Assembly (NCBI GenBank): GCA_024644745.1
Contig: JAHEHF010000004.1
Span: 20,269-84,268, forward strand
Direction: 5' to 3'
DNA from: Flavobacteriaceae bacterium
GTDB taxonomy: Bacteria; Bacteroidota; Bacteroidia; Flavobacteriales; Flavobacteriaceae
DNA length: 64,000 bases
Shown: positions 26,701 through 48,047 of the stretch, piece after piece
How the letters are laid out: every line of letters begins with the position of its first letter
How positions within the stretch are numbered: position 1 is the first letter of the stretch
The notes under the pieces: model-generated
The model's input: the letters and a program-made list of their open reading frames with translations, nothing else
The model's database searches: none
Told to the model about the DNA's origin: nothing
Translations under genes and position numbers: made by a program

Positions 26701-26965
26701 CGCTACTTGAACTGAATGTGGAGGCGTCATTATCGATATCGACAAACACCATATCAATGAAATTGTTTTGCGTATCACCATTATAGGGTGTATCGGCAGA
26801 TTCTCCTAAAATTGAATTTCCGATAATAGTAAGATCGCCGTTGATTCCTGCAGTTTCATATCTTTTTTGAAACGGAACTGTGGTTTGGGCCCAGCCTGTG
26901 AATGAGCTCATGAACAGCAACAAAAATAAAAATTGTAAGCATTGGGTTTGGAACACTGTTTTCAT
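23774..26965 (-). CDS. T9SS type B sorting-domain (gliding motility-associated C-terminal) secreted protein
   Basis: 1063 aa, signal peptide, repeated SprB-like modules, C-terminal IPDFFTPEGDGINETWYPINIEIYPKITVKIFDRYQRL...WDGNYKGNPLPSGDYWYVV. Confidence 0.95.
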   Translation of the reverse strand: MKTVFQTQCLQFLFLLLFMSSFTGWAQTTVPFQKRYETAGINGDLTIIGNSILGESADTPYNGDTQNNFIDMVFVDIDNDASTFSSSSATFNTSNCNRVVYAGLYWGAIATPATPLPEQVKFKIPGGSYLDLTADTAIDRIYYKDVTSLLSALNNPSGEYFVANVSSTEGINSSAGWSLVIVYEDPNESRKYISTFDGFSAVRNEPNNEVDFNYSGFTTPPSGPVEGRVGVAALEGDLGWFGDQMLFKSDGNANFTALYDAENNVDNFFNSKITKDGAQVTDRNLNSTNTLGWDQKLLNLTDLNPGNTLIGNGETGATVRVTNNIGGDHIYTFLNTFAINIIEPNLQVITSVEDTSNDPITYQSPVPLGSTVWYNIDFRNIGTDNAQNTYILNTLPINVTLDEASIELPSGVTYTFNEASRELRFEIDNSLVERKILSETHTIRYQVTASSDCFDYSDACTNLLVNSISSYYDGETSGQNVSGQPGLYGINGCGLGKIGSMDLFVDTSSCSFDSELYFCNNNLTFSGDEGYDTYIWTDENGNVIGNSKEVTVNGTGVYTATQRRTGCTETIRVVTVLGLDVTVDPSDALCKDSNGKVEVTVNEDSSQYTFELYKNGTMVNSIVKTMNNHVFSNIDIGDYEVKSINADGCFNVSEFSIDEPTLLTSTSSKLYNITTCNGEILNGSLEASGAGGTPPYEYSIDGGQTYQVENYFSVATEKTYEVTVKDANGCTSITNVDVGFDPEIEYTIIEEDIICVGDTDGKISIDVTNDQGYQVTYSMDGVNYKASPNFTGLSNGVYDLWIKKENEFHVCETQQTIELEQLIYMELKAETDFSCEGASNIIIASVDPIYEGEVNYILDGSLTQSSGIFENVSQGKHTVSVSHKEFGCADTPVEVTVEQYVPITFEVVETDINEYTVVASGGEPGYEYSFDSADDFSANNILDLKNSRETRDYVFYVKDQRGCVAEKTIFLEFLDIVIPDFFTPEGDGINETWYPINIEIYPKITVKIFDRYQRLIANYEGNTNSWDGNYKGNPLPSGDYWYVVRLNETTDNREFKGNFSLVR

Positions 26966-30653: not shown

Positions 30654-33266
30654 ATGGCTGAACAAGAAGATAAAGAGCAGGATTTAAATCAAAACGAGGA
30701 CACCATTACCAAAATAACGGGAATGTATGAAGACTGGTTCCTCGATTATGCTTCCTATGTGATTTTGGAAAGAGCTGTACCGGGCATCAATGACGGTTTT
30801 AAACCAGTGCAAAGAAGGATCATGCAGTCTATGAAGGACCTCGACGATGGCAGATACAACAAGGTCGCCAATCTGGTAGGACATACCATGCAATACCATC
30901 CGCATGGTGACGCCAGTATTGCAGACGCCATGGTTCAGCTGGGTCAAAAGGAACTTTTGATCGACATGCAGGGAAACTGGGGAAATATCCTTACAGGTGA
31001 CAGAGCGGCGGCCTCAAGATATATTGAGGCAAGACTGTCGAAGTTTGCCCTTGCCGTCGTTTTCAACCCTAAAACGACAGAGTGGCAGGCCTCATATGAC
31101 GGAAGGCGAAAAGAACCCATTGACCTGCCCGTTAAGTTTCCTTTGCTTCTGGCTCAGGGAGCTGAAGGAATCGCCGTTGGACTTTCAACAAAAATCCTTC
31201 CACATAACTTTAATGAACTGATTCAGGCTAGCATCAAAATTTTAAAGGGTCAGAGTTTTTCGATCTTTCCAGATTTTCTGACCGGGGGTGTTGCGGATGT
31301 CAGTAATTATAACGACGGGAAAAGAGGTGGAAAGGTAAGGGTTCGGGCTAAAATTTCTCAGCGTGATAAAACTACCCTGGTGATCAATGAAATCCCCTTT
31401 GGTACAACGACCTCCTCGCTCATCGATTCCGTATTAAAGGCCAATGACAAGGGCAAGATCAAAATCAAGAGAATTGAAGACAATACGGCAAGGGAAGTTG
31501 AAATCCTGATCCATCTGCCTTCAGGCGTATCGCCCGATAAAACCATAGATGCGCTGTTTGCTTTTACAAATTGCGAGGTTTCCATATCTCCGCTATGCTG
31601 TATCATTCAGGAAAACAAACCTGTATTCATAGGTGTCAGGGATGCCCTGAAGTACTCAACTGAGCACACGGTTGATCTTCTCCGAAATGAATTGCAGATC
31701 CAACTGGCGGAACTTGAAGAACAATGGCATTTTTCTTCGCTGGAAAGAATATTCATTGAGAACAGAATCTACCGTGACATTGAGGAAGAAGAAACCTGGG
31801 AAGGTGTCATAAAAGCCATTGATTTGGGCTTAAAACCCCATATCAAACATTTGAAGCGGGCCGTAACCGAAGAAGACATCATCAGGCTTACAGAGATCAG
31901 GATCAAGAAGATTTCAAAGTTTGATATAGACAAAGCAAAATTATTCATTGAAGGTCTTGAAGAGAAAATAGCCAAGGTCAAGGACAATCTTGAGCATATT
32001 ATAGATTATGCCATTGACTATTTTAAGGACTTAAAGGAGAAGTTTGGCAAAGACAGGAATCGCAAGACCGACATCAGGATCTTCGAGGATATCGTTGCCA
32101 CGAAAGTGGTCATGGCCAATGCAAAATTATATGTGAACCGCGAAGAAGGGTTCATCGGTACCTCCCTGAGAAAAGATGAATTCGTATCAGATTGTGCTGA
32201 CATTGATGACATCATTGTCTTCAAAAGGGATGGAAAAATGATGGTGACAAAAGTAGACAGCAAAACTTTTGTAGGTAAAAACATTATCCATGCAGCGGTT
32301 TTTAAAAAGAATGACAAAAGAACCATTTACAACATGCTGTACAAAGACGGTAAGAGTGGTGTGACCTATATGAAACGTTTTGCGGTCACTTCGGTTACCA
32401 GAGATCGAGAATACGACCTCACAAGCGGAACCAAGGGGTCAAAAGTTGTCTATTTTACTGCAAATCCGAACGGGGAAGCCGAATTGATTACGGTCAATTT
32501 GAGAGCTGCCGGAAGCGTAAAAAAAATCAAATGGGATATTGACCTTGCCGACCTGTCCATCAAAGGAAGGGGCAGTAAAGGGAATATTGTAACAAAATAT
32601 CCTTTGAAAAAAATTGAACTGAAAGAAAAAGGTGTATCCACTCTAAAACCAAGAAAGATCTGGTTTGATGAAACGGTTCAGCGACTCAATGTGGATTCCA
32701 GAGGTGACCTTTTAGGGGAGTTCACCGCAGATGACAGGCTTCTGATCATCAATCAGAAAGGAGAGGTCAAGACGATCATCCCCAATCTGAACACCCATTT
32801 TGACAATGACATGATCGTTCTTGAAAAATGGAACCCGAACAAACCTATTTCCGCCATGTATTTTGACGGTGAACGAGAGCGTTATTACGTAAAGCGATTT
32901 ATGGTAGAACATCCAGACAGGGAAGAAAAATTCATCAGCGATCACCCCGATTCAAAATTACAGATCGTGGCAATGGATCACCGTCCGATGGCCGAAGTCA
33001 TTTATTCAAAAAGAAGCTTGGATAATGAAATATTGAATTTTGAAGAGTTTATTGCAGTAAAAGGAATTAAAGCACTTGGTAATCAATATAGTACAGAAAA
33101 AATAAAAGACATCAACCTGCTCGATCCCCTGCCTTATGAGGAACCTGAAATAAATGACGTAGAACTTGTTGAAGAGGAGGTCATTGAAAGCGAAAATAAA
33201 GATCAGAATGCTTCAGAAGATAGTAAAGATGAGGATGATGGTGACCCTCAGACCAAACTGTTTTAG
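30654..33266 (+). CDS. parC: DNA topoisomerase IV subunit A
   Basis: YASYVILERAVPGINDGFKPVQRRIMQSM, GDRAAASRYIEARLSKFA catalytic Tyr motif; acidic C-terminal tail. Confidence 0.95.
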   Translation: MAEQEDKEQDLNQNEDTITKITGMYEDWFLDYASYVILERAVPGINDGFKPVQRRIMQSMKDLDDGRYNKVANLVGHTMQYHPHGDASIADAMVQLGQKELLIDMQGNWGNILTGDRAAASRYIEARLSKFALAVVFNPKTTEWQASYDGRRKEPIDLPVKFPLLLAQGAEGIAVGLSTKILPHNFNELIQASIKILKGQSFSIFPDFLTGGVADVSNYNDGKRGGKVRVRAKISQRDKTTLVINEIPFGTTTSSLIDSVLKANDKGKIKIKRIEDNTAREVEILIHLPSGVSPDKTIDALFAFTNCEVSISPLCCIIQENKPVFIGVRDALKYSTEHTVDLLRNELQIQLAELEEQWHFSSLERIFIENRIYRDIEEEETWEGVIKAIDLGLKPHIKHLKRAVTEEDIIRLTEIRIKKISKFDIDKAKLFIEGLEEKIAKVKDNLEHIIDYAIDYFKDLKEKFGKDRNRKTDIRIFEDIVATKVVMANAKLYVNREEGFIGTSLRKDEFVSDCADIDDIIVFKRDGKMMVTKVDSKTFVGKNIIHAAVFKKNDKRTIYNMLYKDGKSGVTYMKRFAVTSVTRDREYDLTSGTKGSKVVYFTANPNGEAELITVNLRAAGSVKKIKWDIDLADLSIKGRGSKGNIVTKYPLKKIELKEKGVSTLKPRKIWFDETVQRLNVDSRGDLLGEFTADDRLLIINQKGEVKTIIPNLNTHFDNDMIVLEKWNPNKPISAMYFDGERERYYVKRFMVEHPDREEKFISDHPDSKLQIVAMDHRPMAEVIYSKRSLDNEILNFEEFIAVKGIKALGNQYSTEKIKDINLLDPLPYEEPEINDVELVEEEVIESENKDQNASEDSKDEDDGDPQTKLF

Positions 33267-33874
33267 ACCTTGTCCTCAAAGAAAGAAACCAATTTCTGAA
33301 TGGCCTTGCCACGATGTGAAATTTCCCCTTTTTCTTCGGAACTCATTTCAGCAAAAGTTTTCTGATAGCCCTCAGGGGTAAAGATCGGATCGTAACCAAA
33401 ACCCTGATCCCCTGATTTTTTTTCTTCAATACGTCCAACACAAACACCTTCAAAAAAATACTGTTTTCCCTTCCAAAACAGCGAAACGACAGTTCTGAAC
33501 CTCGCTTCTCGGTTTTTTTCACCCCGAAGTTCCGACAGCATTTTATTCACATTGTCGTCAAAAGTGACATTCTCACCTGCATAACGGGCAGAATAGACAC
33601 CTGGGGCACCATTCAAAGCAGATACCTCCAATCCTGTATCATCTGCAAAACAATCATATCCATATCCGTTTTTAACATGGTCCGTTTTAATTTTGGCATT
33701 CCCCTCAAGCGTGGAGGCGGTTTCCTCAATTTCTTCATGGCAGCCAATATCCTGAAGAGTTAAAACTTCTATTCCCTCCGGCAGGAGCTCCTGAACTTCT
33801 CTTAGTTTGTATTGATTATTTGTGGCAAATACAAGTTTCACAGTATCATTTATCTTTGATTCAAAAATAGTCAT
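33263..33874 (-). CDS. rdgB: Non-canonical purine NTP diphosphatase (RdgB/HAM1)
   Basis: VFATNNQYKLREVQ, ADDTGLEVSALNGAPGVYSARYAGE, FGYDPIF, ISHRGKA. Confidence 0.97.
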   Translation of the reverse strand: MTIFESKINDTVKLVFATNNQYKLREVQELLPEGIEVLTLQDIGCHEEIEETASTLEGNAKIKTDHVKNGYGYDCFADDTGLEVSALNGAPGVYSARYAGENVTFDDNVNKMLSELRGEKNREARFRTVVSLFWKGKQYFFEGVCVGRIEEKKSGDQGFGYDPIFTPEGYQKTFAEMSSEEKGEISHRGKAIQKLVSFFEDKV

Positions 33875-33991: not shown

Positions 33992-35866
33992 ATGAAGAAC
34001 ATTATTCTTTTAGCCAGTTTGTGCCTTCTTTTTGCCTGTCAGAAGGAAATTAAAAAAGATAATCCTGAAAATTTACCTGAAACTGCAGAATCGGGAGAGG
34101 TTGTAACTGAAAAATACCCGACTGAGGTGTATTTTGGTGATACCCACCTTCATACCGCCCTTTCAATGGATGCAGGCGCCTTTGGCAATCGTATCGGTAT
34201 GGATGAGGCTTATCAGTTCGCCAGAGGCGATGAGGTGACCTCTACCACAGGGATCAAAACAAAACTGGCTCAACCACTCGATTTTTTAGTCATAGCGGAT
34301 CATTCAGACGGAATGGGTTTCTTTCCTGACCTGATGGCCGGAAAAGAACATGTCATGAAATATGAGGAATCCAAAAGATGGAAAAAAATGATCGATGAAG
34401 GCAAAGGAGGGGATGCTGCCGTGGATATCATAAAGACCTTCTCACAAGGTCAAATGCCTTTTAAGACCAATGACGTGGAAATGATGACTCCTGTATGGAA
34501 AACGGTTGTGGATGCAGCTGAAAAATATAATGACCCAGGTAAATTTACGGCATTCATAGGCTATGAGTGGACCTCCCTGATCAAAGGGAACAACTTACAC
34601 AGGGTGGTTATCTACAGAGATAACGGTGACAAAGCCATCAACCAGCTCCCATTTACAAATGAAGACAGTTCTGATCCGGAACGCCTCTGGGATAATCTTG
34701 AAGGCTATGAAAAAAATACAGGAGGAAAAGTACTGGCCATTCCACACAATGGGAACCTGAGCAACGGGATGATGTTTGCCGAGACAACAGTTGACGGAAG
34801 ATCTTTTGACAAGGCCTATGTTGACCGCCGGGCCAGATGGGAGCCTTTATACGAGGCAACCCAAATCAAGGGAGACGGTGAGACGCATCCATTCCTTTCC
34901 CCTAATGATGAGTTTGCAGACTATGAAAACTGGGACAAAGGAAATCTTGATATGAGTGAGAAGAAAACCAAAGACATGCTGCAGTATGAATACACCAGAT
35001 CTGCCTTGAAACTGGGATTGAAGTTTAAAAAAGAACTGGGCACCAACCCTTATAAATTCGGATTGATCGGCAGTACAGATTCTCATACTTCCCTGGCCAC
35101 AGGAGATGATTCAAATTTCTTTGGTAAGGCTTCCAATGTGGAACCGAGCAAAGAGCGATGGAACCATCCGTTTCTTAGTTCAGAAAATGGAACAGTAGCT
35201 ACCTGGGAAACCCTGGCAGCAGGATATGCTGCAGTATGGGCCCATGAAAACACAAGGACCTCTCTTTGGGATGCTATGAAAAGAAAGGAGACCTATGCCA
35301 CAACCGGTTCAAGGATGAAAGTACGCTTCTTTGGCGGATGGGACTTTAGAAAAGAGGATCTAACAGGAGATTGGGTGAGCCTTGGTTACGAAAAAGGTGT
35401 TCCCATGGGTGGAGACCTGACGGCTTCACAAGACAAAGCCCCTACTTTTATGGTATATGCCTTAATGGACCCTGAAGGAGGAAGCCTCGACAGGATTCAG
35501 ATGGTCAAAGGCTGGCTGAATGCCGACGGCAGTCTTGATGAAAAGGTCTATGACGTCGTTTGGAGTGGTAACAGATCCGTTGGTCCAGATGGAAAATTAC
35601 CATCTGTCGGAAATTCAGTGAATGTCAGTGACGGGACCTGGGACAATGCCATAGGATCATCAGAATTGAAAGGGCTTTGGTCCGACCCCGAATTTGACCC
35701 GGCACTTGAGGCTTTCTATTATGTAAGAGTTATTGAAATTCCCACCCCGCGATGGACCTTGTATGACAAATTGCAATACGGGGCTGAATTGTCAAAAGAT
35801 GTTCCATTGTTCAATACTGAAAGGGCCTATACCTCCCCTATCTGGTATTCCCCTGAACAAAATTAA
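33992..35866 (+). CDS. DUF3604 domain lipoprotein (PHP-like metal-dependent hydrolase), paralog A
   Basis: Lipobox LFAC; GDTHLHTALSMDA, VIADHSDGMG, IPHNGNLSNG, GSTDSHTS, C-terminal TERAYTSPIWY. Confidence 0.9.
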   Translation: MKNIILLASLCLLFACQKEIKKDNPENLPETAESGEVVTEKYPTEVYFGDTHLHTALSMDAGAFGNRIGMDEAYQFARGDEVTSTTGIKTKLAQPLDFLVIADHSDGMGFFPDLMAGKEHVMKYEESKRWKKMIDEGKGGDAAVDIIKTFSQGQMPFKTNDVEMMTPVWKTVVDAAEKYNDPGKFTAFIGYEWTSLIKGNNLHRVVIYRDNGDKAINQLPFTNEDSSDPERLWDNLEGYEKNTGGKVLAIPHNGNLSNGMMFAETTVDGRSFDKAYVDRRARWEPLYEATQIKGDGETHPFLSPNDEFADYENWDKGNLDMSEKKTKDMLQYEYTRSALKLGLKFKKELGTNPYKFGLIGSTDSHTSLATGDDSNFFGKASNVEPSKERWNHPFLSSENGTVATWETLAAGYAAVWAHENTRTSLWDAMKRKETYATTGSRMKVRFFGGWDFRKEDLTGDWVSLGYEKGVPMGGDLTASQDKAPTFMVYALMDPEGGSLDRIQMVKGWLNADGSLDEKVYDVVWSGNRSVGPDGKLPSVGNSVNVSDGTWDNAIGSSELKGLWSDPEFDPALEAFYYVRVIEIPTPRWTLYDKLQYGAELSKDVPLFNTERAYTSPIWYSPEQN

Positions 35867-35884
35867 AAAACCCTAACCATAACA

Positions 35885-37801
35885 ATGATGAAATCAACTA
35901 TTTTTGTAATTGTCCTTATATTTTTATGCACATCCGGATTTTATGCCCAACAAGTAGGAGAAATGACCATGAATCCTAAAGAAGGTGAAAACATTCATAA
36001 AAAAAGAGGATATTCTCCCTATGCAGGTCGGTATTTTCCGACGCAGGTCTATTGGGGAGACACACATTTACACACAAGCAACTCATTGGATGCCAGGGCT
36101 TTTGGAACCACTTTAGGGCCTGAAGAAGCATACAGGTTAGCAAGAGGTGAGGAAATTACAGCGACTCATGGTGAGAAGGTGAAATTATCAAGACCACTTG
36201 ACTGGTTGGTGGTAGCTGACCATTCTGATGGAATGGGGGCCATGAATGAGATCATCAAAGGCTCGCCGAATTTGATGCGAGACCCGACAGTTAAAGACTG
36301 GCACAACAGGGTCAATGAAGGTGGTAAGACAGCCTTGATGGCAACCATGGATATCATCAACAGTTTTGCTTTAGGAAAAATCCCGGAAATCCTTTTGGAT
36401 GATGAATTTAGTCAGTCCATTTGGGACAGGTACATCGAAACAGCCGAAAAATACAATGACCCGGGGACCTTTACAACCATTATTGGTTATGAATGGACAT
36501 CAACTGAAAACGGAAACAACCTGCACAGGAACGTGTTGTATCGAGATAATGGAAATCTTGCAAGACAAATGCTTCCCTATACCACGAGCGAGAGTTTTAA
36601 TCCGGAAGACCTTTGGAAATGGATGGAACAATACGAAGCAAAAACGAATGGGAACGTCCTCGCCCTGGCGCATAACGGCAACCTGAGCAATGGTATCATG
36701 TTTCCGGTTGAGGTAAATCCTGCCAATGGGAAACCCCTTGATGGCAATTATGCCAAGGATAGGATCAAGTGGGAGCCTTTATATGAAATCACACAGATCA
36801 AAGGTGATGGTGAGACCCATCCTTTTCTTTCTCCTAATGATGAATTTGCAGATTATGAAAATTGGGAAAAAGGAAATTTAAACCTTAGCGTACCAAAATC
36901 GAAGGACATGCTGCAATATGAGTATGCAAGAGAGGCACTGAAGAATGGATTAAAAATAGAAGCCAAACTCGGAACGAACCCATATAAGTTTGGGGTGGTC
37001 GGATCCACTGATTCACATACCAGTCTGGCCACAGCCGAAGAGGACAATTTTTTTGGCAAGCACTCAGGCAATGAACCAAGCGCCCACAGAGCAACCGGTA
37101 TAGTTGGTGAATTTGAAGGAAATAAAATTTTTGATTGGGAATTGGTGGCTTCTGGATACGCGGGGGTATGGGCAACTGAAAATACACGGGAAGCCTTATT
37201 TGATGCCATGGCCCGAAAAGAAGTTTATGCGACGACCGGTCCAAGGATATTGGTTCGCTTTTTTGGCGGATGGGATTTTAGCGCTGAAGACGCGCGCAAC
37301 AGGCTTCCTGCCGAAGTTGGTTACACCAAAGGAGTCCCTATGGGAGGGGATCTGCGCAAAGCGCCCTCCGGAAAATCACCCACATTTTTAGTCGGTGCCT
37401 TAAAGGATCCGTATGGAGGCAACCTTGACAGGATCCAAATTGTGAAAGGATGGCTTGACAAATCAGGAAAAACACAAGAAAAAGTATACAATGTGGTCTG
37501 GAGCGATATGGACCAGCGAAAAGCCGATAAAAATGGGAAAATCCCTGACGTGGGTAACTCTGTTGATGTAAAAAACGCCACCTGGTCAAACACCATTGGC
37601 AGGGCCGAATTGATCTCTGTATGGAAAGATCCGGACTTTGACCCAAAATTAAGAGCTTTCTATTATGCCAGGGTTATTGAGATCCCAACACCAAGATGGA
37701 CTGCGTATGACGCCAAGAGATTTGGAGTGGAAATGCCTAAGGAATCGCCTATGACGACTACTGAAAGAGCTTATACTTCTCCTATTTGGTACACACCTTG
37801 A
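35885..37801 (+). CDS. DUF3604 domain protein (periplasmic/secreted), paralog B
   Basis: Signal peptide; GDTHLHTSNSLDA, VVADHSDGMG, LAHNGNLSNG, GSTDSHTS, TERAYTSPIWY; closely similar to paralog A. Confidence 0.9.
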   Translation: MMKSTIFVIVLIFLCTSGFYAQQVGEMTMNPKEGENIHKKRGYSPYAGRYFPTQVYWGDTHLHTSNSLDARAFGTTLGPEEAYRLARGEEITATHGEKVKLSRPLDWLVVADHSDGMGAMNEIIKGSPNLMRDPTVKDWHNRVNEGGKTALMATMDIINSFALGKIPEILLDDEFSQSIWDRYIETAEKYNDPGTFTTIIGYEWTSTENGNNLHRNVLYRDNGNLARQMLPYTTSESFNPEDLWKWMEQYEAKTNGNVLALAHNGNLSNGIMFPVEVNPANGKPLDGNYAKDRIKWEPLYEITQIKGDGETHPFLSPNDEFADYENWEKGNLNLSVPKSKDMLQYEYAREALKNGLKIEAKLGTNPYKFGVVGSTDSHTSLATAEEDNFFGKHSGNEPSAHRATGIVGEFEGNKIFDWELVASGYAGVWATENTREALFDAMARKEVYATTGPRILVRFFGGWDFSAEDARNRLPAEVGYTKGVPMGGDLRKAPSGKSPTFLVGALKDPYGGNLDRIQIVKGWLDKSGKTQEKVYNVVWSDMDQRKADKNGKIPDVGNSVDVKNATWSNTIGRAELISVWKDPDFDPKLRAFYYARVIEIPTPRWTAYDAKRFGVEMPKESPMTTTERAYTSPIWYTP

Positions 37802-37817
37802 TCATTATGTTCAGCTT

Positions 37818-37856
37818 AAAAAAGATCCTGCTGTAAAACCAGGGTCTTTTTTTTTA
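37818..37856 (+). terminator. Terminator after DUF3604 paralog B
   Basis: AAAAGATCCTG..CAGGGTCTTTTTTTTT imperfect (G-U) stem and T-run. Confidence 0.65.
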
Positions 37857-37887
37857 TTTTTACCCTACATAATTATTACAAAGAACA

Positions 37888-38472
37888 ATGGGTTTATTGG
37901 AACTTAAGAAGGCTTTAAAGGATTTCTTTCCCTTTCTTTCATTGGAAGAAATTGACCTCTTATTGTCTATATGTGAATATAAAAGCTATCCCAGTAAAGC
38001 CATAATCCTGAAAAGTGGCAAATTTTCTAAAATGGCATTTCTTATTTTAGAGGGCAGCGTAAGAGGCTATATACTTAATGAATCTGGAATTGAAAAAAAC
38101 ATTTTGCTCAGATCAAAGGGTATTTTTGTAGCTGATGCAGATGCAATTTTTGGGCATCAGCCGCAGAAATTGACTATTGAATCCCTAGATCAAACTCGGA
38201 TATTAATGTTTTCTGTATCAGATTTTGAAGAATTGGCCAACAAAATTAAGGGCATACAACATCTTTATTTAGAAAGCCTTAAGGAAGCAGTTTTAAGATT
38301 AACCTATAGGGTAAACAGTTTAATCACCATGACTGCCGAGGAAAGGTATCTGGATCTGATGACTAAAAACCCTCAATTTCTAAAAGATGCCTATGACAAG
38401 TACATAGCTAACTATCTCGGCATCACACCTGTATCGTTTTCCAGAATCAAGAAAAATTTAAATCGTTCTTGA
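37888..38472 (+). CDS. Crp/Fnr-family cyclic-nucleotide-binding-domain regulator
   Basis: cNMP-binding-like N-terminus (AFLILEGSVRGYILNESGIEKN) and C-terminal HTH (IANYLGITPVSFSRIKKNL). Confidence 0.88.
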   Translation: MGLLELKKALKDFFPFLSLEEIDLLLSICEYKSYPSKAIILKSGKFSKMAFLILEGSVRGYILNESGIEKNILLRSKGIFVADADAIFGHQPQKLTIESLDQTRILMFSVSDFEELANKIKGIQHLYLESLKEAVLRLTYRVNSLITMTAEERYLDLMTKNPQFLKDAYDKYIANYLGITPVSFSRIKKNLNRS

Positions 38473-38594
38473 ATTATCAAATGTTAATTCGAGTTATCTT
38501 TAAATGAAATACATTTGATATCTAAATCCAATGTGATTTATTTAATAATAACATTCTTTTATTGCATTATATAGAATTACCGTTTCCCCCTGGC

Positions 38595-38678
38595 ATTGAT
38601 TATGGTCATTTTAGCTATATATTTTTTGGTGATGCAAAATATTCACTTACAAAATCGCTTCAATGACCAATGATCAAT
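38595..38678. repeat. Imperfect inverted repeat in long AT-rich intergenic region
   Basis: ATTGATTATGGTCATTTTAGC (38595-38615) vs reverse complement of GCTTCAATGACCAATGATCAAT (38657-38678); TGGTCATT/AATGACCA and ATTGAT/ATCAAT exact. Confidence 0.6.
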
Positions 38679-38918
38679 CCAAAATTAAAAACTTCTTGCT
38701 GAAAAACTTTTATATTTCCTAAATAAAATTTGCCGAAAAACGTGATGGTTGATTCTCTGAGATAATTTTAACAAGTGATGATAATTTACCAAGAGGATGA
38801 AGAATAAACCCTAGGTCAAAATAGTATTTCTAATTTTAAAAGATTTGCACTAACTTTATACAAATATGTTATCAACCCCTTTCACAAACCTAATAAACAC
38901 TTACTAAACTTTTTATAA

Positions 38919-39650
38919 ATGAAAAACTTCTATCTATTATTTGCCTTATTCTCATTATTTATGCTGAATGCACAAGAATCCACATCAGAGAATTATGACC
39001 CGATAGCCATAGGTATTTTGGATCATATGGCGGATGTGATCGGCGATTTGGAATCTTGTTCATTTACCTTATCTACCTCTGCTGATTTTACAGATCCTGA
39101 TCATGGCTATATTAAACATTATACCAATGACGACATTTTTTTTGATGGTTCAAATAAATTGATGATCCAGGTAGAAGGAACAAAAGGAAAAAAAGGATTT
39201 TGGTATAATGGAAATGAATTGGATTACTATTCTTATGATGAAAATAATTATGTTACCATTCCGGCACCAAACAATACTATTGCCATGATTGACAGCATTC
39301 ACCAGACTTACGGTATTCGTTTTCCAGCTGCTGATTTTTTCTACCCTTCCTTAACCGATGATATCATAGACGGTTTTGATTCTGTAAGATTCCTTGGAAA
39401 AAACACCATAGACAATGTTGAATGTCTTTTTATTAAAGCATCCAATGAAGAAATGGATGTTTTACTGTGGATTGCCAATGACGCTTATAAATTACCCAAA
39501 AGACAGCTTATCCTTTACAAAAACCAGAATAACGAACAATACGAAGCTACTTTTAACAACTGGGTTTTGAATCCAAATTTGCCAGAAGCCATTTTTAATT
39601 TTATCCCACCAGCCAGCGCATCACAAATTGAAATATTAGCTAAAAAATAA
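38919..39650 (+). CDS. DUF2092 family secreted protein (LolA-like fold family)
   Basis: Signal peptide; LDHMADVIGDLESCSFTLSTSADF..., PAADFFYPSL, MDVLLWIANDAYKLPKRQLILYKN pattern. Confidence 0.75.
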   Translation: MKNFYLLFALFSLFMLNAQESTSENYDPIAIGILDHMADVIGDLESCSFTLSTSADFTDPDHGYIKHYTNDDIFFDGSNKLMIQVEGTKGKKGFWYNGNELDYYSYDENNYVTIPAPNNTIAMIDSIHQTYGIRFPAADFFYPSLTDDIIDGFDSVRFLGKNTIDNVECLFIKASNEEMDVLLWIANDAYKLPKRQLILYKNQNNEQYEATFNNWVLNPNLPEAIFNFIPPASASQIEILAKK

Positions 39651-39672
39651 ACACTATAACAAACCCATACAT

Positions 39673-40698
39673 ATGAAAACTTCTTATTTTTCAGGTCAAA
39701 TTAAAACCATATTCTTTTTAGTATTTATTATTTTTTGTCTTCCCTTATCGATTGAAGCACAGAGGATGGGCCATAAAGCTTCACGTGGTGGCGGCGGACG
39801 CTCAATGCAACAATCACGGCCCAGCACAAGTCGTGCTTCAAATGCCAGAACCAGCAGACCTGCTGCAAGCAGTAACAGGAAAGCAACAACGAATAGAAAC
39901 ACAGCAGCACAGAGTAGACCCAGTACCCCGAAAAAATCTATCAATGGTGGGCATAATAAATCAACAGATAGAAAGGTGACATCAAATAGACCCAGTAAAA
40001 GCGTGTCTACTAACAGAGGTTCAAACACAAATAAAGTAACCAATAAAAAAACGACCAACAGAGGTGGCAATAAGGTGGGTAACAAAACCCAAATTGGTAA
40101 TAATAACGTCAATATTAATGTGAATAATAGTCGCAATACAAGAGTAAATGCAAGTTCAAGACATTACAGCCGGCCTCCCTATCACTATGGTGGTTTTGGT
40201 TACTATTGCCATCGCCCCTATTTTTACCATCCATACAGGCCTTTTTACTGGGGTCCCTATTACCATCCATGGGGCTATTTTGTAGCATCCCTGGCAACAA
40301 CAGCAATCATTGTTAGTATTGCCAATGATAATGATAGTAGCAAGAATGAAGAATACCATTATGAAAATGGTACTTATTATCAAAAAACGGAAGATGGTTT
40401 CGTTGCGGTCCAGGCCCCTGTAGGGGCCCAGGTTCCGGAAATTCCCAAAGAAGCGGAAAAGGTCCAGGTGGATAACAGCAGCAATTATTATTATGGAGGT
40501 GCTTTTTACGAACAGAATGCCGAAGGTTATATTGTAGTGCCCGCTACTGCCGGAACAATTGTTCCTAACCTTCCTGAAGGAGGTGAAGAAGTAAAAATTG
40601 GGGAACAAACCTATGTGCAATTTGGTGAAACTTATTACCAACCTATTCAAGTAGATGGTAAGAACATGTATGAAATAGTTGAAGTCAGAGAAGAGTAA
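39673..40698 (+). CDS. DUF6515-like secreted protein with low-complexity basic N-terminus and YY-rich C-terminal repeats
   Basis: Signal peptide; S/R/N/T-rich linker; YHYENGTYYQKTEDGFVAVQAPVGAQVPEIP and YYYGGAFYEQNAEGYIVVPATAGTIVPNLP repeats. Confidence 0.7.
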   Translation: MKTSYFSGQIKTIFFLVFIIFCLPLSIEAQRMGHKASRGGGGRSMQQSRPSTSRASNARTSRPAASSNRKATTNRNTAAQSRPSTPKKSINGGHNKSTDRKVTSNRPSKSVSTNRGSNTNKVTNKKTTNRGGNKVGNKTQIGNNNVNINVNNSRNTRVNASSRHYSRPPYHYGGFGYYCHRPYFYHPYRPFYWGPYYHPWGYFVASLATTAIIVSIANDNDSSKNEEYHYENGTYYQKTEDGFVAVQAPVGAQVPEIPKEAEKVQVDNSSNYYYGGAFYEQNAEGYIVVPATAGTIVPNLPEGGEEVKIGEQTYVQFGETYYQPIQVDGKNMYEIVEVREE

Positions 40699-40726
40699 TT
40701 GTTATCATAATCCTCCTTAAAAAAAT

Positions 40727-42580
40727 ATGAAATATTTTCCCCATATTTTCATGTTGATTTTATTGCAATTTAGTTGTAAACAATCGACTTTGCAAAAGGA
40801 AGAAGCCTCAAAACAAGTTTCATACGCTTCTGAGGAGCAAATTATGATCGAGTCAGATCCTCAAAAGCAAGCTTATTTTGGTGAAACGCATGTGCACACC
40901 AGCTCTTCCATGGATGCATTTATTGGAGGCAACCGGCTGACACCAGAAGACGCCTATCGTTTTGCTCGAGGTGAAGAAGTATTGGTCAATGGAAGTATGC
41001 ATCGCCTGAAACGTCCTTTAGATTTTTGTGCAATTTCAGACCATGCGGAATATCTTGGGGAAACCTTTACCCTTATGAACCAGGGCTCCCCTGGTTACGA
41101 TGATCCGGTAGCAAGGCAAATGCGGGAAGCTGATAATTATGAGGATGCGATGGCATTGTTTGTAAAATACGTGATCACCCCGGCCCGAACAGGAGGGTCT
41201 TCACACCCTGATTTTTATCAGGGAAAAGCTTCGACGATGTCAGGCTGGCGCAAAAATATAAATGCCACAGAAAAATATTATGAACCGGGTAAATTTACAA
41301 CCTTTCATGCCTTTGAATGGACTTCGGCCCCTAATGCAGGTAATTTACATCGCAATGTGATTTTTAGGGATACCATCCTGCCAGAAATTCCCTTTAGCGC
41401 CAATGAAAGCAGGGATCCTCAAAAACTCTGGGCCTGGATGCAGCAGCAAATAGATCTTGGGTCAACCCTTTTGGCCATCCCACATAATTCAAACGGAAGC
41501 AAAGGCATGATGTTTCCTGAAGTCGATATAGAGGGCAAACCAATAACACAAGCCTATGCAACCATGCGTCAGAATATGGAACCTGTAATTGAAATGATGC
41601 AGATCAAAGGCAATTCTGAAGTACATCCTGACTTCTGGCCCAATGATGAATTTGCAGACTTTGAATTGGCCTACTCTATTCAAGATTACAGCGGGCGAAA
41701 ATTTGAAAAAAGAAACTATATCCGTTACGGTTTGGAGCGAGGTCTTAAATACGAGGAAGATCTGGGGGTCAACCCGTTCAAATATGGATTTGTTGGAGGC
41801 ACTGACAATCACAACGGAACACCGGGTAATGTGGAAGAAGATAATTATGGGGTTGGTAGCCATGGTTATGCTGATCAAACTGCTTTAAACAGGACAAATC
41901 AAGTAATTGACGGCTGGGCCACAGCTTATGATATTAATCCGGGTTCCCTGACAGGCGTTTGGGCGCAAAGCAATACACGAGAAGCAATTTGGGACGCAAT
42001 AAAAAAGAGAGAAACTTTTGCCACGAGTGGCCCAAGAATAAAGGTTCGATTGTTCGGTGGATATGGCTATGGGAACAATTACAAAGACCACTCTTTTATC
42101 GAAGATGGATATGCCAAAGGTGTACCTATGGGAGGCGATTTGAAGAAGGTCAATGGTAAAACCCCACAATTCATCGTATGGGCGATAAAAGACCCTATTG
42201 GACCGGGACTTGACCGGATTCAAATCATCAAAGGATGGATGGAAAAAGGAAAAATGAAAGAAAAAATCTACAATGTTGCTGTATCAGACAAAAGACAAAT
42301 CAAGGACGATGGCTCTGTGGATCCATTAGACGCAGCTATAGATTTAAAAACAGGTGATTTTAACAAGGCCAAAGGAAGCAACGAATTACAGACGGTTTGG
42401 ACAGATCCCGACTTTGAGGCCTCACAAAAAGCATTTTATTATGCCAGGGTCTTACAGATACCTACAGCACGATGGAACTTATATGATGAGATAAGATCGG
42501 GTGTGAAATTCCCTGAATCATCAGCTAAAACGATTATTGAAAGAGCCTGGACAAGCCCTATCTGGTATCAGGCAAATTAA
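40727..42580 (+). CDS. DUF3604 domain lipoprotein, paralog C (divergent from A/B)
   Basis: Lipobox LQFSC; GETHVHTSSSMDA, AISDHAEYLGE, IPHNSNGSKG, GGTDNHNGTPGNVEEDNYG, IERAWTSPIWY. Confidence 0.92.
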   Translation: MKYFPHIFMLILLQFSCKQSTLQKEEASKQVSYASEEQIMIESDPQKQAYFGETHVHTSSSMDAFIGGNRLTPEDAYRFARGEEVLVNGSMHRLKRPLDFCAISDHAEYLGETFTLMNQGSPGYDDPVARQMREADNYEDAMALFVKYVITPARTGGSSHPDFYQGKASTMSGWRKNINATEKYYEPGKFTTFHAFEWTSAPNAGNLHRNVIFRDTILPEIPFSANESRDPQKLWAWMQQQIDLGSTLLAIPHNSNGSKGMMFPEVDIEGKPITQAYATMRQNMEPVIEMMQIKGNSEVHPDFWPNDEFADFELAYSIQDYSGRKFEKRNYIRYGLERGLKYEEDLGVNPFKYGFVGGTDNHNGTPGNVEEDNYGVGSHGYADQTALNRTNQVIDGWATAYDINPGSLTGVWAQSNTREAIWDAIKKRETFATSGPRIKVRLFGGYGYGNNYKDHSFIEDGYAKGVPMGGDLKKVNGKTPQFIVWAIKDPIGPGLDRIQIIKGWMEKGKMKEKIYNVAVSDKRQIKDDGSVDPLDAAIDLKTGDFNKAKGSNELQTVWTDPDFEASQKAFYYARVLQIPTARWNLYDEIRSGVKFPESSAKTIIERAWTSPIWYQAN

Positions 42581-42687
42581 AACTGGATTTTACTATGAAC
42601 AATTTTATTCAATGAATGCACCAATAAAGTTTGAGGGATTTTATTTTCAGATTGAAGGTCTGATGCAAACTTGAATAATCAAGTACT

Positions 42688-44799
42688 ATGTTAGATATGA
42701 GCACAAAGAAAACCTTAAAATGGACTTTGATCATTATTGTTGGAGTTTTTATCGCCAGTTGGATCATTGTTCCTGTTATTGTCAAAAACTATGCGATCAA
42801 AAACAGTAAGGAGCTGTTGGGTCGCCAGATCGACATCAATCGGCTTAGATTTAATTTCTTCACGGGTAATATCCATATGAACGATTTTAAGATGTTTGAA
42901 CAAGACGAGAAAACGGTATTTGTTTCCTTCGACACCCTCAATGTGAACATTGAACCATATCAATTCATTTTTAACAAGAAAGTGGTTGAACAATTCTACC
43001 TTCAAGGCTTATATGTGAACATCATTCAACAGGATTCAACTTTTAATTTTGACGATCTGATCGCTTTTCACAGTGCTGAAGAGGAATCGGAGGAGCCTGA
43101 AGATGAAACGTCTTTTAAATATATCCTTTCCAACCTCGAACTCAAGGATGCTCAATTTGTTTATGAAGACAGGAACATTGATCATACAACAGACATAGAT
43201 GATTTTTCATTTTTCATCCCACAGATCAGCTGGGACCAGGAGGAGAAAAGCAACGCAGACATCAGGTTCAATTTCAAACAGGAGGGCTATTTGGAATCCA
43301 GCTTCAACATCAATCCTGTTGACGGTCAATACGATGCCAGGATCAAAATTTACCGCCTTTATCTCAATCCATTTTTAAAGCGGTTTCAAGAGTATGCAGA
43401 GGTTACCGAAGTTGAAGGATATTTAAATACGGACCTGGAAATCGTTGGCAATGTGAATGAAGCGGAAAAATCGGTCGTTTCGGGCAGAACAATTCTCAAC
43501 GATTTTTCAATGAAAGATACAGATTCCAAAGCGTTTTTATCTGCCGATAAAATCGTATGCACCCTCAAGGAGATAGATTATTATAATGATTCCTACCACA
43601 TTGATACCCTGGCCTTAATGAATCCTTATCTATTTTTTGAGCTGGATTCGATCAGCAATAATGTCTTTCGCATCTTCAAAATGGATTCTGATACGGCTGC
43701 AACGGATGTTTCAGAGCCGGAAACAACAGAGGTGGATAACGAAGTTACTTCTCAAGACAACTTGTTTTACGCGATCAATCACCTGAATTTGCAGGACGGA
43801 ATCCTTGACTACACCGACAACCTTACGGGTCAACCTTTCAATTATCATTTGAGCGAGATACAGGTTGATACCGACAGTATCTTCAGTGATTCAGAATGGG
43901 TCGAGGTCAATGCAAAGATGTTGCTGAATGAAAGGGGGACTTTGGTAGCCCAGGTGGGCTTCGATCCGGTAGATTACCTCGATGGCCGACTGGATATTTC
44001 TGTTGAGAAATTCCTTTTACCTGATCTTAATATTTACACGAACCACTATACCGGGCATTCCTTGCTCGACGGAGACATGTATTATTATTCCAAATCCAAA
44101 TTGGTGAACGGAATGATTGAAAGTGAAAACGAACTGATTGTCAAAAAACCAACAATCCGTGATGGCGAGGGAGGTCTTTACAGGTTACCCTTGAAATTTG
44201 CCTTATGGCTTCTCTCGGATTCGAATGGAGACGTATCTCTAAACGTTCCTGTCAGAGGCGATCTTAATGATCCGGAAATAGATGTCTGGAAACTGGTATG
44301 GACCACCTTGAAGAAGAAGATCACCGATACTGCTGACAATCCTGTCAATTCGCTCGCGCCGCTTGTCGACGCAGATCCCAAGGAACTTCAATCGATTGAA
44401 TTTAACTACGCTGATTCCCTGCTGACGGATCAGCATCTGAAGCAATTGAACTGGCTCCTGGAACTTGAACAAAAAAAGGAAGGCCTGTCAATTGATTTGA
44501 ATTATTTTGTTGATGAAGCGATTCAAAAAGATACAATTGCCATGATGCAGGCTTCTTCGGAGGGAAGGAAAATTGCAGATTCAACCTCGACAACTTCCGG
44601 AAATCAGGAGATTGACAAGAGTTCAATGGCTTATTCAGATACCAGGATCAGAAAAGTCAGAAATTATCTAAGTTCAAAATTTCCTGAAACTGCAATAAGC
44701 ACATCCGACAGGGATACATTATCACCCGAAAATACAGGAATCAGGCCAACCTTCAAGATTAAATTTTCACTGCAATCAGAGATGGACAGCATAAAATGA
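42688..44799 (+). CDS. DUF748/AsmA-like membrane-anchored protein
   Basis: N-terminal TM segment; NIHMNDFKMFEQDEKTVFVSFDTLNVNIEPY..., long beta-rich repeat architecture. Confidence 0.7.
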   Translation: MLDMSTKKTLKWTLIIIVGVFIASWIIVPVIVKNYAIKNSKELLGRQIDINRLRFNFFTGNIHMNDFKMFEQDEKTVFVSFDTLNVNIEPYQFIFNKKVVEQFYLQGLYVNIIQQDSTFNFDDLIAFHSAEEESEEPEDETSFKYILSNLELKDAQFVYEDRNIDHTTDIDDFSFFIPQISWDQEEKSNADIRFNFKQEGYLESSFNINPVDGQYDARIKIYRLYLNPFLKRFQEYAEVTEVEGYLNTDLEIVGNVNEAEKSVVSGRTILNDFSMKDTDSKAFLSADKIVCTLKEIDYYNDSYHIDTLALMNPYLFFELDSISNNVFRIFKMDSDTAATDVSEPETTEVDNEVTSQDNLFYAINHLNLQDGILDYTDNLTGQPFNYHLSEIQVDTDSIFSDSEWVEVNAKMLLNERGTLVAQVGFDPVDYLDGRLDISVEKFLLPDLNIYTNHYTGHSLLDGDMYYYSKSKLVNGMIESENELIVKKPTIRDGEGGLYRLPLKFALWLLSDSNGDVSLNVPVRGDLNDPEIDVWKLVWTTLKKKITDTADNPVNSLAPLVDADPKELQSIEFNYADSLLTDQHLKQLNWLLELEQKKEGLSIDLNYFVDEAIQKDTIAMMQASSEGRKIADSTSTTSGNQEIDKSSMAYSDTRIRKVRNYLSSKFPETAISTSDRDTLSPENTGIRPTFKIKFSLQSEMDSIK

Positions 44800-44854
44800 C
44801 ATAATTTTTTTATATTGGCGAAAATTGTTTATCCTTTAAAATCAAATTGAAATT

Positions 44855-45736
44855 ATGAAAAAAATACTTAAGGAACCTCTCTTGCATTTTATCGTGATAG
44901 GAGCCTTATTTTTCATGTTGTACGGATGGGTCAATAAGGAAGGTGACGGTGAGGAAACCATTTACTTTGACGATTATGATATGGATAATCTCATTGCAAG
45001 CTGGGAAATGCAATGGAAACGTTTACCCAGTCAGGAAGAGCTTAAGAGCCTTGTAGACCTGAATATCCGACAGGAGATCTTTTATCAGGAAGCACTCAAA
45101 ATGAATCTCGATCATAATGATGAGATCATTAAACGCAGACTGGCACAGAAAATGCAGTTTTTGTCAAATGATCTTGCCACTTTTAAGGAACCCACCCAAG
45201 AAGCCCTGCAGGACTATTACGAGGCCAATGTGGATAAATATCTAAGCCCTTTTGAATTTTCCTTTTATCAGATTGTTCTGAGCCCTGATCACAGAAAGAA
45301 CCCGGCAGAAGATGCTGAAAAACTTTTGAAGGAATTCGGAGCCTATGGTCCGGAGGCCCTTGCAGACAAGGGAGATCCGCTTCCTTTTCCATTTGAATAT
45401 GAAAACACAGATGCAGAGGATATTTCCAGGCAATTGGGTATGCAGTTTTCACGACGACTTGAAACTTTAGATACCGGAAAATGGACAGGACCAATCCAGT
45501 CTGGTTTTGGGATGCATCTTGTTTATCTGAAAACACGAAAAGACCCCCAACGCCCGCCTTTTGAATCCATTCAAAGAGAACTGACAAGGGATCTGGAATA
45601 TGAAACCCAGCAAAAGGTGAACGACCTGGTCTATGAAGAACTTAAAAAAAACTACAGGATAGAATTTGACCTGAATCCTGAAAAGTTTGACAAAGCCTAT
45701 GTGGAATTCCTTGAAGGAAAGGAGACAGATAACTAA
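44855..45736 (+). CDS. Membrane-anchored PpiC-type peptidylprolyl isomerase
   Basis: N-terminal TM (LLHFIVIGALFFMLYGWV); SurA-N-like IRQEIFYQEALKMNLDHNDEIIKRRLAQKMQFL; C-terminal SGFGMHLVYL. Confidence 0.8.
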   Translation: MKKILKEPLLHFIVIGALFFMLYGWVNKEGDGEETIYFDDYDMDNLIASWEMQWKRLPSQEELKSLVDLNIRQEIFYQEALKMNLDHNDEIIKRRLAQKMQFLSNDLATFKEPTQEALQDYYEANVDKYLSPFEFSFYQIVLSPDHRKNPAEDAEKLLKEFGAYGPEALADKGDPLPFPFEYENTDAEDISRQLGMQFSRRLETLDTGKWTGPIQSGFGMHLVYLKTRKDPQRPPFESIQRELTRDLEYETQQKVNDLVYEELKKNYRIEFDLNPEKFDKAYVEFLEGKETDN

Positions 45737-45737
45737 A

Positions 45738-46730
45738 ATGAAGACAAACCTTATTTATTTTCTGTTCCTGGTCCTCATGCTAGTTCCCCTGTCAACAAGG
45801 GCACATGAGATACGCCCCGCCTACCTGCAGATCAATCAGGTTGATGAATTTACCTACGAAGTATACTGGAAAGTTCCCAGCATGGGTGATGCCGTGCCAA
45901 GGATACAGCCAGTGTTCCCTGAGTCTTTTACCCTGGAAACCACCAAACAGCCCAATCAGATTCCGGGCTCTGTCATCTATTACTTCACGATAAGCTCTGA
46001 TGAAGGATTACAGGGTCAGAGAATCTTCATTCAGGGACTCAATAAAACACTGATAGACGTATTGGTAACTGTTGCTTATCTCAACGGAGAAAAGGCTACC
46101 CTGCTATTGCAGGCAGACAAAGATTCAGGAATCCTTCCTGGGGAGACCAAGGTAAGCGATGTGATTCAGACTTATACTGTTTTAGGCATTGAACACATTC
46201 TTCTCGGTATTGATCACCTGTTATTCGTTCTTGCCCTGATCATGATCACGAGGGGAAAATGGAGGATCCTTAAAACCATCACTTCCTTTACCCTTGCTCA
46301 TAGTATCACCCTTAGCCTGGCAGCACTGGGTTTGGTAAAATTTCCCGGTCCGCCGGTTGAGGCTGTTATTGCCTTAAGCATCGTTTTTCTTGCCATGGAA
46401 ATTCTAAAGAATCTCAGAGGGGAAGCGACGCTGACCAGTAAAAAGCCCTGGATCGTAGCTTTCACTTTTGGGCTGTTGCATGGTTTTGGATTTGCGGGAG
46501 CCCTCTCAGACATTGGACTTCCTCAAACTGAGATTCCCCTGGCACTCGCCTTTTTCAACATTGGCGTTGAGCTGGGACAGATCATATTTGTAATGGTCAT
46601 GCTGTTCGTGATTTATCTGATCAGCTTTAAAAAGCAATGGCCCGTGTATCTTAAAAAAATGCCGGCCTATGCCATTGGTTCCATTGCCGCTTTTTGGATG
46701 ATCCAACGCGTCGTTGGGTTTTGGAATTAA
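45738..46730 (+). CDS. HupE/UreJ family membrane protein
   Basis: GIEHILLGIDHLLFVLAL, FTLAHSITLSLAALG, FGLLHGFGFAGAL; signal peptide, so start refined from 45687 to ATG 45738. Confidence 0.88.
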   Translation: MKTNLIYFLFLVLMLVPLSTRAHEIRPAYLQINQVDEFTYEVYWKVPSMGDAVPRIQPVFPESFTLETTKQPNQIPGSVIYYFTISSDEGLQGQRIFIQGLNKTLIDVLVTVAYLNGEKATLLLQADKDSGILPGETKVSDVIQTYTVLGIEHILLGIDHLLFVLALIMITRGKWRILKTITSFTLAHSITLSLAALGLVKFPGPPVEAVIALSIVFLAMEILKNLRGEATLTSKKPWIVAFTFGLLHGFGFAGALSDIGLPQTEIPLALAFFNIGVELGQIIFVMVMLFVIYLISFKKQWPVYLKKMPAYAIGSIAAFWMIQRVVGFWN

Positions 46731-46807
46731 TCTCCATAAATGCTTGCTATTGAGGCTTTATTTTTTTAATTTTAAATAGTATTCATTGCTCATTTAAAAG
46801 CTGTTTC

Positions 46808-47170
46808 ATGAAACATGCTATCTCATTCTCGGCAATTATAGGGCTTGCATTTCTAAGTATTCGTTTTGTTGGTCTTTTTATTGATCTTCCCTATAACAAC
46901 CTGTTTCTCATTTTTGGACTGGGCATTTTAGTTCTAGTAACTTTACCCCTCTATCTTCTTGAACAATCGCACTATGCAAAGTTGAAGCGATCTATACTGC
47001 GCAAATACAAAAAGGAAAAAACATCAAATAAGAAAGAAGCAATCAAAAAGAAAACCGGGGTCAATTATCCTTCCTTCAGAAGACAAAAAAGCGGCCTGAC
47101 CTGGCGAGGTGGGAGCGTTCATGGATCAAGTGCCCAACGCAATGAAAGAAAAGGCTTTCTAAAACATTGA
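46808..47170 (+). CDS. Hypothetical membrane protein with basic C-terminus
   Basis: Two predicted TM segments then K/R-rich tail; no recognised family. Confidence 0.5.
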   Translation: MKHAISFSAIIGLAFLSIRFVGLFIDLPYNNLFLIFGLGILVLVTLPLYLLEQSHYAKLKRSILRKYKKEKTSNKKEAIKKKTGVNYPSFRRQKSGLTWRGGSVHGSSAQRNERKGFLKH

Positions 47171-47258: not shown

Positions 47259-48047
47259 TCAAGGCTTGATTGCCTCAATGGCAAAAACCATGGGGATTTT
47301 GTTTTCTAAATGTTTTATTCTAAACTTTTTAGGCGAAGATTCGATCGTATGGTTAAAACAATTATAGGGGGAATAATCATATTCATCAAGTGAATTAATA
47401 GCAAGCCCGCAATTGATCAAACTATTCAGTATTTCACTCAAACTATGGTTCCATACGACACTTTGAGGATTGATCCTGGCCTTTTTATCTGCATAGGTTC
47501 CCTTTTCAATTTCAACAATAGATCCGGTATTGAAATAATTGTATTGAATTCTTTTAAAATCTTCATCAAACATCCAAACGAACGGATGGAACTCAACAAA
47601 AATAAATTGTCCCTTTGGTTTTAAATATCTCGAAACAATACCTGCCCATTTTTTCAAATCAGGAAGCCATCCAATTGTCCCATAACTCGCAAAAACGATA
47701 TCAAATTGACGATCCAAATGTTTTGGCAAATCATATAGGTCGCATTGAATGAAAGAAGCATCTACATCACATTGAGACGCGAGTTCCTGAGCCCTTTGGA
47801 TCGCTTTGTCTGATAAATCTATTCCCGTTACACTTGCTCCCTCCCGGGCCAGTGAAATTGTATCCTGTCCGAAATGGCATTGAAGATGCAAAATTTCTTT
47901 ACCCCTTAGATCTCCAAGCAGTTCAAGCTCTATAATATTCAAGGAAGATTTTCCCGAAAGAAATCCCTTCATATCATAAAATTCAGATTCCATATGCACA
48001 TCGACACGTTGATTCCAGGATTTCCTATTGATTTCTTTATAATTCAT
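47259..48047 (-). CDS. Class I SAM-dependent methyltransferase
   Basis: GKEILHLQCHFGQDTISLAREGASVTGIDLSDKAI motif. Confidence 0.92.
   Translation of the reverse strand: MNYKEINRKSWNQRVDVHMESEFYDMKGFLSGKSSLNIIELELLGDLRGKEILHLQCHFGQDTISLAREGASVTGIDLSDKAIQRAQELASQCDVDASFIQCDLYDLPKHLDRQFDIVFASYGTIGWLPDLKKWAGIVSRYLKPKGQFIFVEFHPFVWMFDEDFKRIQYNYFNTGSIVEIEKGTYADKKARINPQSVVWNHSLSEILNSLINCGLAINSLDEYDYSPYNCFNHTIESSPKKFRIKHLENKIPMVFAIEAIKP

Follow-up and report, generated by a model that had tools for sequence, protein, structure and literature searches.

Do the plus-strand genes that surround three DUF3604 genes in this flavobacterial DNA form a single extracytoplasmic system and, if not, which of them belong together and what could they do? 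The stretch analysed here (64,000 nucleotides; the window) had been described in an earlier note, which read nine of these genes as one envelope module for metal-dependent hydrolysis. Literature on DUF3604 is almost absent; among the papers searched, one contains the family name, and there only in a mutant table.

Layout of the gene block

The block consists of ten plus-strand genes (33992-47170), with minus-strand genes on either side (33263-33874 and 47259-48047). Its features are as follows.

33992..35866, plus strand: DUF3604 paralog D1, lipoprotein with an LFAC lipobox, predicted PHP-type hydrolase (PF12228, E 5.3e-242)
35885..37801, plus strand: DUF3604 paralog D2, Sec signal peptide, predicted PHP-type hydrolase (PF12228, E 9.2e-250)
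37888..38472, plus strand: Crp/Fnr-type regulator, variable part and not core (cNMP_binding, E 8.9e-9)
38919..39650, plus strand: DUF2092 protein, exported, LolA-related, second module (PF09865, E 3.7e-61; weak LolA1 match)
39673..40698, plus strand: DUF6515 protein, exported, second module (PF20125, E 2.5e-82)
40727..42580, plus strand: DUF3604 paralog D3, lipoprotein with a QFSC lipobox, predicted PHP-type hydrolase (PF12228, E 1.7e-218)
42688..44799, plus strand: DUF748 AsmA-like protein with an N-terminal transmembrane segment, second module (PF05359, E 3.5e-88)
44855..45736, plus strand: PpiC, membrane-anchored periplasmic parvulin-like folding protein, core (PF13145, Rotamase_2, E 3.5e-14)
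45738..46730, plus strand: HupE, with signal peptide, ZrgA-like ectodomain and HupE_UreJ_2 permease, core (PF13795, E 2.1e-47)
46808..47170, plus strand: small membrane protein downstream of HupE (no Pfam match)

The nine genes with named families are all open reading frames at these positions, and Pfam confirmed every family named for them in the earlier note; the start of hupE was corrected and the tenth gene was added. The most likely hupE start is the ATG at 45738, two bases past the end of the ppiC stop codon, rather than the TTG at 45687 inside ppiC. Only Lutimonas-like genomes were found to have the small membrane gene after hupE. By inspection, a signal peptide, a lipobox or an N-terminal transmembrane segment is present in every product apart from the Crp protein, in agreement with the earlier view that nearly all are exported or membrane-anchored.

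Intergenic gaps are short between D1 and D2 (18 bp), on either side of the DUF6515 gene (22 and 28 bp) and between ppiC and hupE (1 bp). The Crp and DUF2092 genes are separated by 446 bp, so that two transcription units are possible. Promoter and terminator scans, together with a search for the Bacteroidota-type promoter pattern, gave signal at chance level and therefore do not place the operon borders. No Rfam element, for example a metal riboswitch, was found in the window or in four related loci. A defence role was rejected, as PADLOC gave marginal matches of the Crp domain only. The genome holds these three DUF3604 genes and no further ones. Elsewhere in the window, positions 23774-26965 encode a large protein with an SprB repeat and a CHU_C type IX secretion signal domain.

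The conserved core and its recurrence

The source genome is that of a marine flavobacterium near Lutimonas. Three relatives were compared, namely Lutimonas halocynthiae (L004), L. saemankumensis (L005) and a member of the same genus as the window genome (L068). In all three the block occupies the same chromosomal place as in the window, with topoisomerase-A-subunit-like and NTP-pyrophosphatase-like genes on its left and a DUF808 gene nearby on its right, and all three carry the small membrane gene. The gene order is D1-D2-PpiC-HupE in L068, D1-D2-D3-PpiC-HupE in L005, D1-D2-Crp-D3-PpiC-HupE in L004 and D1-D2-Crp-DUF2092-DUF6515-D3-DUF748-PpiC-HupE in the window. The Crp gene is thus present at the site in one of the three relatives (L004, and neither L005 nor L068), and the DUF2092, DUF6515 and DUF748 genes are present in none. 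These four orders at one site define DUF3604-PpiC-HupE as the core and the remaining genes of the block as variable, so the nine genes do not hold together as one system: the AsmA-like, DUF2092, DUF6515 and Crp genes fall outside the core, and the block in the window is composed of two modules.

The core recurs in Bacteroidota, in Alpha-, Beta- and Gammaproteobacteria and in one cyanobacterium. With the window proteins as queries, it was found in tight order in Lutimonas, Caballeronia, Labrenzia, several Gammaproteobacteria including SAR86, Altererythrobacter and the cyanobacterium Microseira, where the order is PpiC-HupE-DUF3604. The earlier note had staked its proposal on recurrent association of DUF3604 with PpiC and HupE, and this association was found across several phyla. 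PpiC lies directly upstream of HupE in 34 of 35 HupE matches. Both genes are nearby and on the same strand in 21 of the 45 DUF3604 clusters with full flanks; about half of the examined clusters are without a linked PpiC-HupE pair, which is thus not strictly required at the locus. In multi-copy genomes such as G155 and G158 no PpiC-HupE pair was found beside the DUF3604 copies examined. One of these, the deltaproteobacterial metagenome-assembled genome G158 (locus L026), has 24 DUF3604 matches, some of them partial, which represents a strong lineage expansion.

At the level of whole genomes, full-length HupE was found in 21 of 246 Alphaproteobacteria, all 21 among the 25 genomes with DUF3604, and in ten of 196 Gammaproteobacteria, all ten among the 19 with DUF3604; these counts were made with a HupE profile seeded from DUF3604-linked copies, which favours that class. 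Among the matches listed for 151 Flavobacteriaceae genomes, where protein length served as the mark of the HupE class, 12 genomes had full-length HupE and all 12 lay inside the 13 with DUF3604. The hypergeometric P values (approximately 1e-26, 5e-12 and 7e-17 for Alphaproteobacteria, Gammaproteobacteria and Flavobacteriaceae, respectively) ignore genome relatedness and overstate independence. The core genes co-occur far more often than chance would give. Of the 27 HupE genes in Alphaproteobacteria, 25 have a DUF3604 gene within 2.5 kb, for the most part at a distance of 0.85-1.15 kb, which is the length of ppiC.

Two further arrangements were noted. In L081 (394-8737; genome G085), the genes upstream of DUF3604 encode PpiC, a 720-residue protein that gives a HupE-like match, an ABC ATPase-like protein, a ZnuA-type zinc-binding protein and additional membrane proteins. 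In two genera (L074, 11705-12355; L075, 9545-10177), a protein of about 215 residues, from a family with no Pfam match, is encoded between the DUF3604 and PpiC genes.

DUF3604 proteins as predicted PHP-type enzymes

Nine residues (His61, His63, Asp69, His113, Glu203, His214, His263, Asp376 and His378 in D2 numbering) are invariant in an alignment of 33 sequences, and their equivalents are invariant in 97 homologues from several phyla. Trinuclear PHP sites show the same succession (HxH, D, H, E, H, H, DxH), which is consistent with a role as metal ligands assigned by order and fold. For comparison, the PHP site of tuberculosis DnaE1 has nine residues and three metals, with Asp23, Glu73, His107 and Asp226 among the nine (PMC5636811). 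The HxH and DH motifs recognized in the earlier note are part of this complete nine-residue PHP-like site, which supports its proposal of an extracytoplasmic metal-dependent hydrolase system.

Structure prediction, which had been suggested as a check on that proposal, was carried out for D2 (AlphaFold2, pLDDT 89.2). In Foldseek the best PDB match of the model was the PHP-like protein 3e38 (E 1.8e-6, probability 1.00), followed by the PHP protein 2anu (E 1.8e-4); no other PDB entry matched it below E 0.001, and the TM-scores were low to modest as the match is partial. The model thus indicates that DUF3604 has a PHP-type fold, with the nine invariant residues as putative metal ligands. At the sequence level the Pfam PHP model gave no match to DUF3604, for which PF12228 was the only match at E values up to 0.01, and sequence searches of solved structures returned nothing usable.

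DUF3604 proteins and the PHP phosphoesterases (3e38, BVU_3505; 2anu, TM0559; Sb-PDE) would accordingly share a PHP-type fold with nine ligands in the same order. Sb-PDE of Sphingobium TCM1 is an exported PHP enzyme of known activity, a secreted zinc-containing phosphodiesterase (PMC5460133), and DUF3604 proteins are likewise exported. Unlike these phosphoesterases, DUF3604 proteins have about 600 residues and a conserved C-terminal beta region and lack a sequence match to Pfam PHP or to the PDB. The CehA/McbA carbamate esterases (NF038032), metallohydrolases, either exported or soluble, in which histidines are essential, appear from sequence to be at best distantly related: D3 is weakly similar (E 0.007), and membership was rejected as D3 scored 15.8 bits where the cut-off is 80 and D1 and D2 gave no match.

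D1, D2 and D3 each belong to a clade of their own that includes Lutimonas orthologues. They are therefore paralogs of long standing, and their substrates may differ. Orthologues of D1 stand at the same place in the Lutimonas-type loci L004, L005 and L068, and the D3 clade also includes copies linked to DUF2092, DUF6515 and DUF748. In the obligate intracellular bacterium Chlamydia trachomatis, a single transposon insertion has been reported in the DUF3604-annotated gene CT_425, located at the final codon (PMC11925237).

Features of HupE and PpiC

The window HupE scores 161 bits against PF13795 (Pfam cut-off 24.5). Invariant residues are His23, His153-x5-Asp159-His160 (the HX5DH metal motif), His188, Glu221, His248, Asn274 and Glu278. 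A histidine (His23 in the window copy) stands at the predicted mature N-terminus in all 31 aligned copies, preceded at position -1 by Ala, Ser, Gly or Cys in 29 of the 31, as for a predicted signal peptide cleavage site. The ectodomain that follows is a beta domain of about 115 residues with no sequence match to any solved structure in the PDB, and its best Foldseek match is the Vibrio zinc protein ZrgA (8ezw/8f1b).

Two HupE/UreJ-2 proteins with an N-terminal histidine, the anglerases, were described in a 2025 study: their ectodomains bind copper, and one also binds nickel, ZrgA is the nearest structure for one of the two, and they were proposed to fish metal for import (PMC12537917). Ang-1 and Ang-2 share with the present HupE a signal peptide, an invariant histidine at the predicted mature N-terminus, a beta-sandwich ectodomain nearest to ZrgA and a HupE_UreJ_2 permease. 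Their ectodomains are longer (about 176 residues) and their neighbours differ, being DUF4198, indigoidine A-like and PfkB proteins there and PpiC with DUF3604 or arginase here; the main text of the study mentions neither DUF3604 nor PpiC. As regards homology to the Ang-1 domain of RbAng-1a, the comparison yielded the fold match to ZrgA and no sequence match in the PDB. Given the shorter ectodomain and its lack of sequence recognition in the PDB, we term the window protein anglerase-like rather than a member of the anglerases.

PpiC is related to HP_0175 and to Campylobacter cell-binding factor 2. The second parvulin histidine (His226, alignment numbering) is invariant and the first position is His or Gln, with Gln in the window copy, so that the protein lacks one of the two parvulin histidines. 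Because the first histidine is replaced in many members, isomerase activity appears doubtful and a chaperone role seems more likely than catalysis.

Exported arginase-family enzymes beside PpiC-HupE

A congener of the window genome (G025) has a second PpiC-HupE pair (L104, 5760-8816), which follows an exported arginase-family gene and not DUF3604. When this arginase was searched for in 301 Flavobacteriaceae genomes, one further copy was found, 56% identical and in another genus, where the exported arginase-family gene is again directly followed by PpiC and HupE (L132, 6907-9970; genome G730). The metal ligand motifs of the exported arginase are intact (GGDH, HFDSHYD, DIDV), and among its PDB relatives are a guanidinobutyrase and the guanidinase entries 7oi1 and 9fek. 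Guanidinase-type enzymes have Ni and Mn or Ni sites, and the nickel loading of some arginase-family guanidinases has been noted as an open question (PMC11410670). We found no description of a secreted ureohydrolase operon of the type arginase-PpiC-HupE.

Two unrelated exported polynuclear metallohydrolases with one helper pair provide the strongest argument that PpiC-HupE serves metal-enzyme biogenesis and not a single substrate. The pair would thus not be specific to DUF3604 and would also serve exported arginase-family enzymes. The assignment to envelope assembly in the earlier note is better replaced by folding and metal supply of an exported enzyme, as the same pair also stands beside exported arginase-family enzymes.

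The second module

The second module (DUF2092-DUF6515-...-D3-DUF748) is apart from PpiC-HupE in L073 and L076, which are not independent cases as their D3 copies are near identical, and is joined to PpiC-HupE in L078 and in the window. DUF748 adjoins D3 relatives in L073, L076 and L078, and a D1-type copy in L070. Full-length DUF6515 occurs in 14 of 151 Flavobacteriaceae genomes, nine of which are DUF3604-positive; five Flavobacteriaceae genomes carry the DUF2092-DUF6515 pair without DUF3604, which also speaks against its membership of one system. The pair was located at eleven further places (L113-L123), some with DUF748 or sulfatases nearby; this count includes L121, where the gene picker called only DUF2092, beside a DUF6515 match.

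Arylsulfatases and Phenol_MetA_deg proteins are found near genes of the block in relatives, and sulfatases near ten of the 45 DUF3604 clusters. A constant sulfatase partner of DUF3604 was not accepted, the proximity being suggestive only, as several of the sulfatase-adjoining genomes contain 27 to 40 sulfatase matches. With that reservation, the second module and the nearby arylsulfatases and Phenol_MetA_deg proteins suggest extracytoplasmic breakdown of small ester compounds.

Proposed role and alternative explanations

Support is good for both the conserved unit and the catalytic site. The reading that fits best, and that we regard as reasonably probable, is that exported polynuclear metallohydrolases are folded by PpiC and receive their metal from HupE. 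D1-D3 would be exported through Sec as lipoprotein or periplasmic PHP-type hydrolases with a predicted active site for three divalent metals. PpiC, anchored in the inner membrane, would catch the newly exported enzyme and assist its folding in the periplasm, while HupE would bind a transition metal through its N-terminal histidine ectodomain and permease motif and keep it available, so that the enzyme would be metallated after export. In the window this core would be interleaved with a separately occurring second module that elsewhere can be near sulfatases, a setting that would fit hydrolysis of small ester-type compounds outside the cytoplasm. Metal supply by HupE is what we infer, and its main weakness is that HupE/UreJ proteins are usually described as importers into the cytoplasm, which by itself would be of no help to a periplasmic enzyme.

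A wider form of this reading is more tentative, although we consider it a real possibility: PpiC-HupE might be a general system for post-export metallocentre assembly, a foldase and a permease that metallate Sec-exported polynuclear hydrolases of unrelated folds (DUF3604 proteins and ureohydrolases), with HupE possibly as an outward transporter of metal or as a donor of periplasmic metal.

Alternatively, the genes could form a nutrient-scavenging operon in which HupE imports scarce Ni, Co, Zn or Cu and DUF3604 frees metal-binding or nutrient compounds, with no part in enzyme maturation. Known or proposed Ni/Co import by HupE/UreJ proteins (PMC4284471), the import role proposed for anglerases (PMC12537917) and the ZnuA-type binding protein near DUF3604 in L081 are in its favour, but it leaves unexplained both the near-constant PpiC partner and the replacement of DUF3604 by an exported arginase, and no TonB receptor or SusCD pair was a constant neighbour in the loci viewed. 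We consider it unlikely.

Less likely again is that the link with DUF3604 reflects one horizontally transferred package, with PpiC-HupE acting more generally, and without relation to DUF3604, in envelope stress or metal homeostasis. DUF3604 is indeed sporadic in Bacteroidota, with matches in three of 300 genomes (and in 13 of 151 from Flavobacteriaceae), and the identity of D2 to beta- and alphaproteobacterial copies is about 60%, versus 39% to D3 in the same genome. The linkage is retained, however, in convergent as well as tandem orientation, and DUF3604 and PpiC-HupE are both present even in genomes where they are unlinked (for example G152 and G301). The convergent cases (L133-L135, three genomes) show a link that is independent of co-transcription, which argues for a functional connection and not for read-through alone. 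That the nine genes are one envelope-assembly system, in which DUF748, DUF2092 and PpiC place surface lipoproteins, is very improbable: D1 and D3 are lipoproteins by their lipoboxes, DUF2092 is related to LolA (PMC4520260) and D3-type copies occur together with DUF748, DUF2092 and DUF6515 in L073, L076, L078 and the window, but nearly all other loci have the core without these genes and DUF2092-DUF6515 is found without DUF3604.

Folding and metal supply of an exported enzyme by PpiC-HupE can also be set against the HupE/UreJ permeases of hydrogenase and urease operons. There too a permease stands beside the genes of a metalloenzyme that requires the metal. Hydrogenase and urease receive nickel inside the cell, whereas the enzyme here carries a signal for Sec export and its constant partner is a periplasmic parvulin; an exported enzyme with a periplasmic foldase as constant partner is what would be new relative to that scheme.

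To our knowledge, the acquisition of metal by Sec-exported enzymes with multinuclear sites is poorly understood. The exchange of DUF3604 for an exported arginase offers a clean comparison for metal acquisition after export, and anglerase-type permeases gain a concrete candidate client. DUF3604 itself is represented in several phyla as a large family of exported enzymes, with up to 24 matches per genome, some partial, and for this family the analysis provides a predicted fold, a putative catalytic site and an accessory pair.
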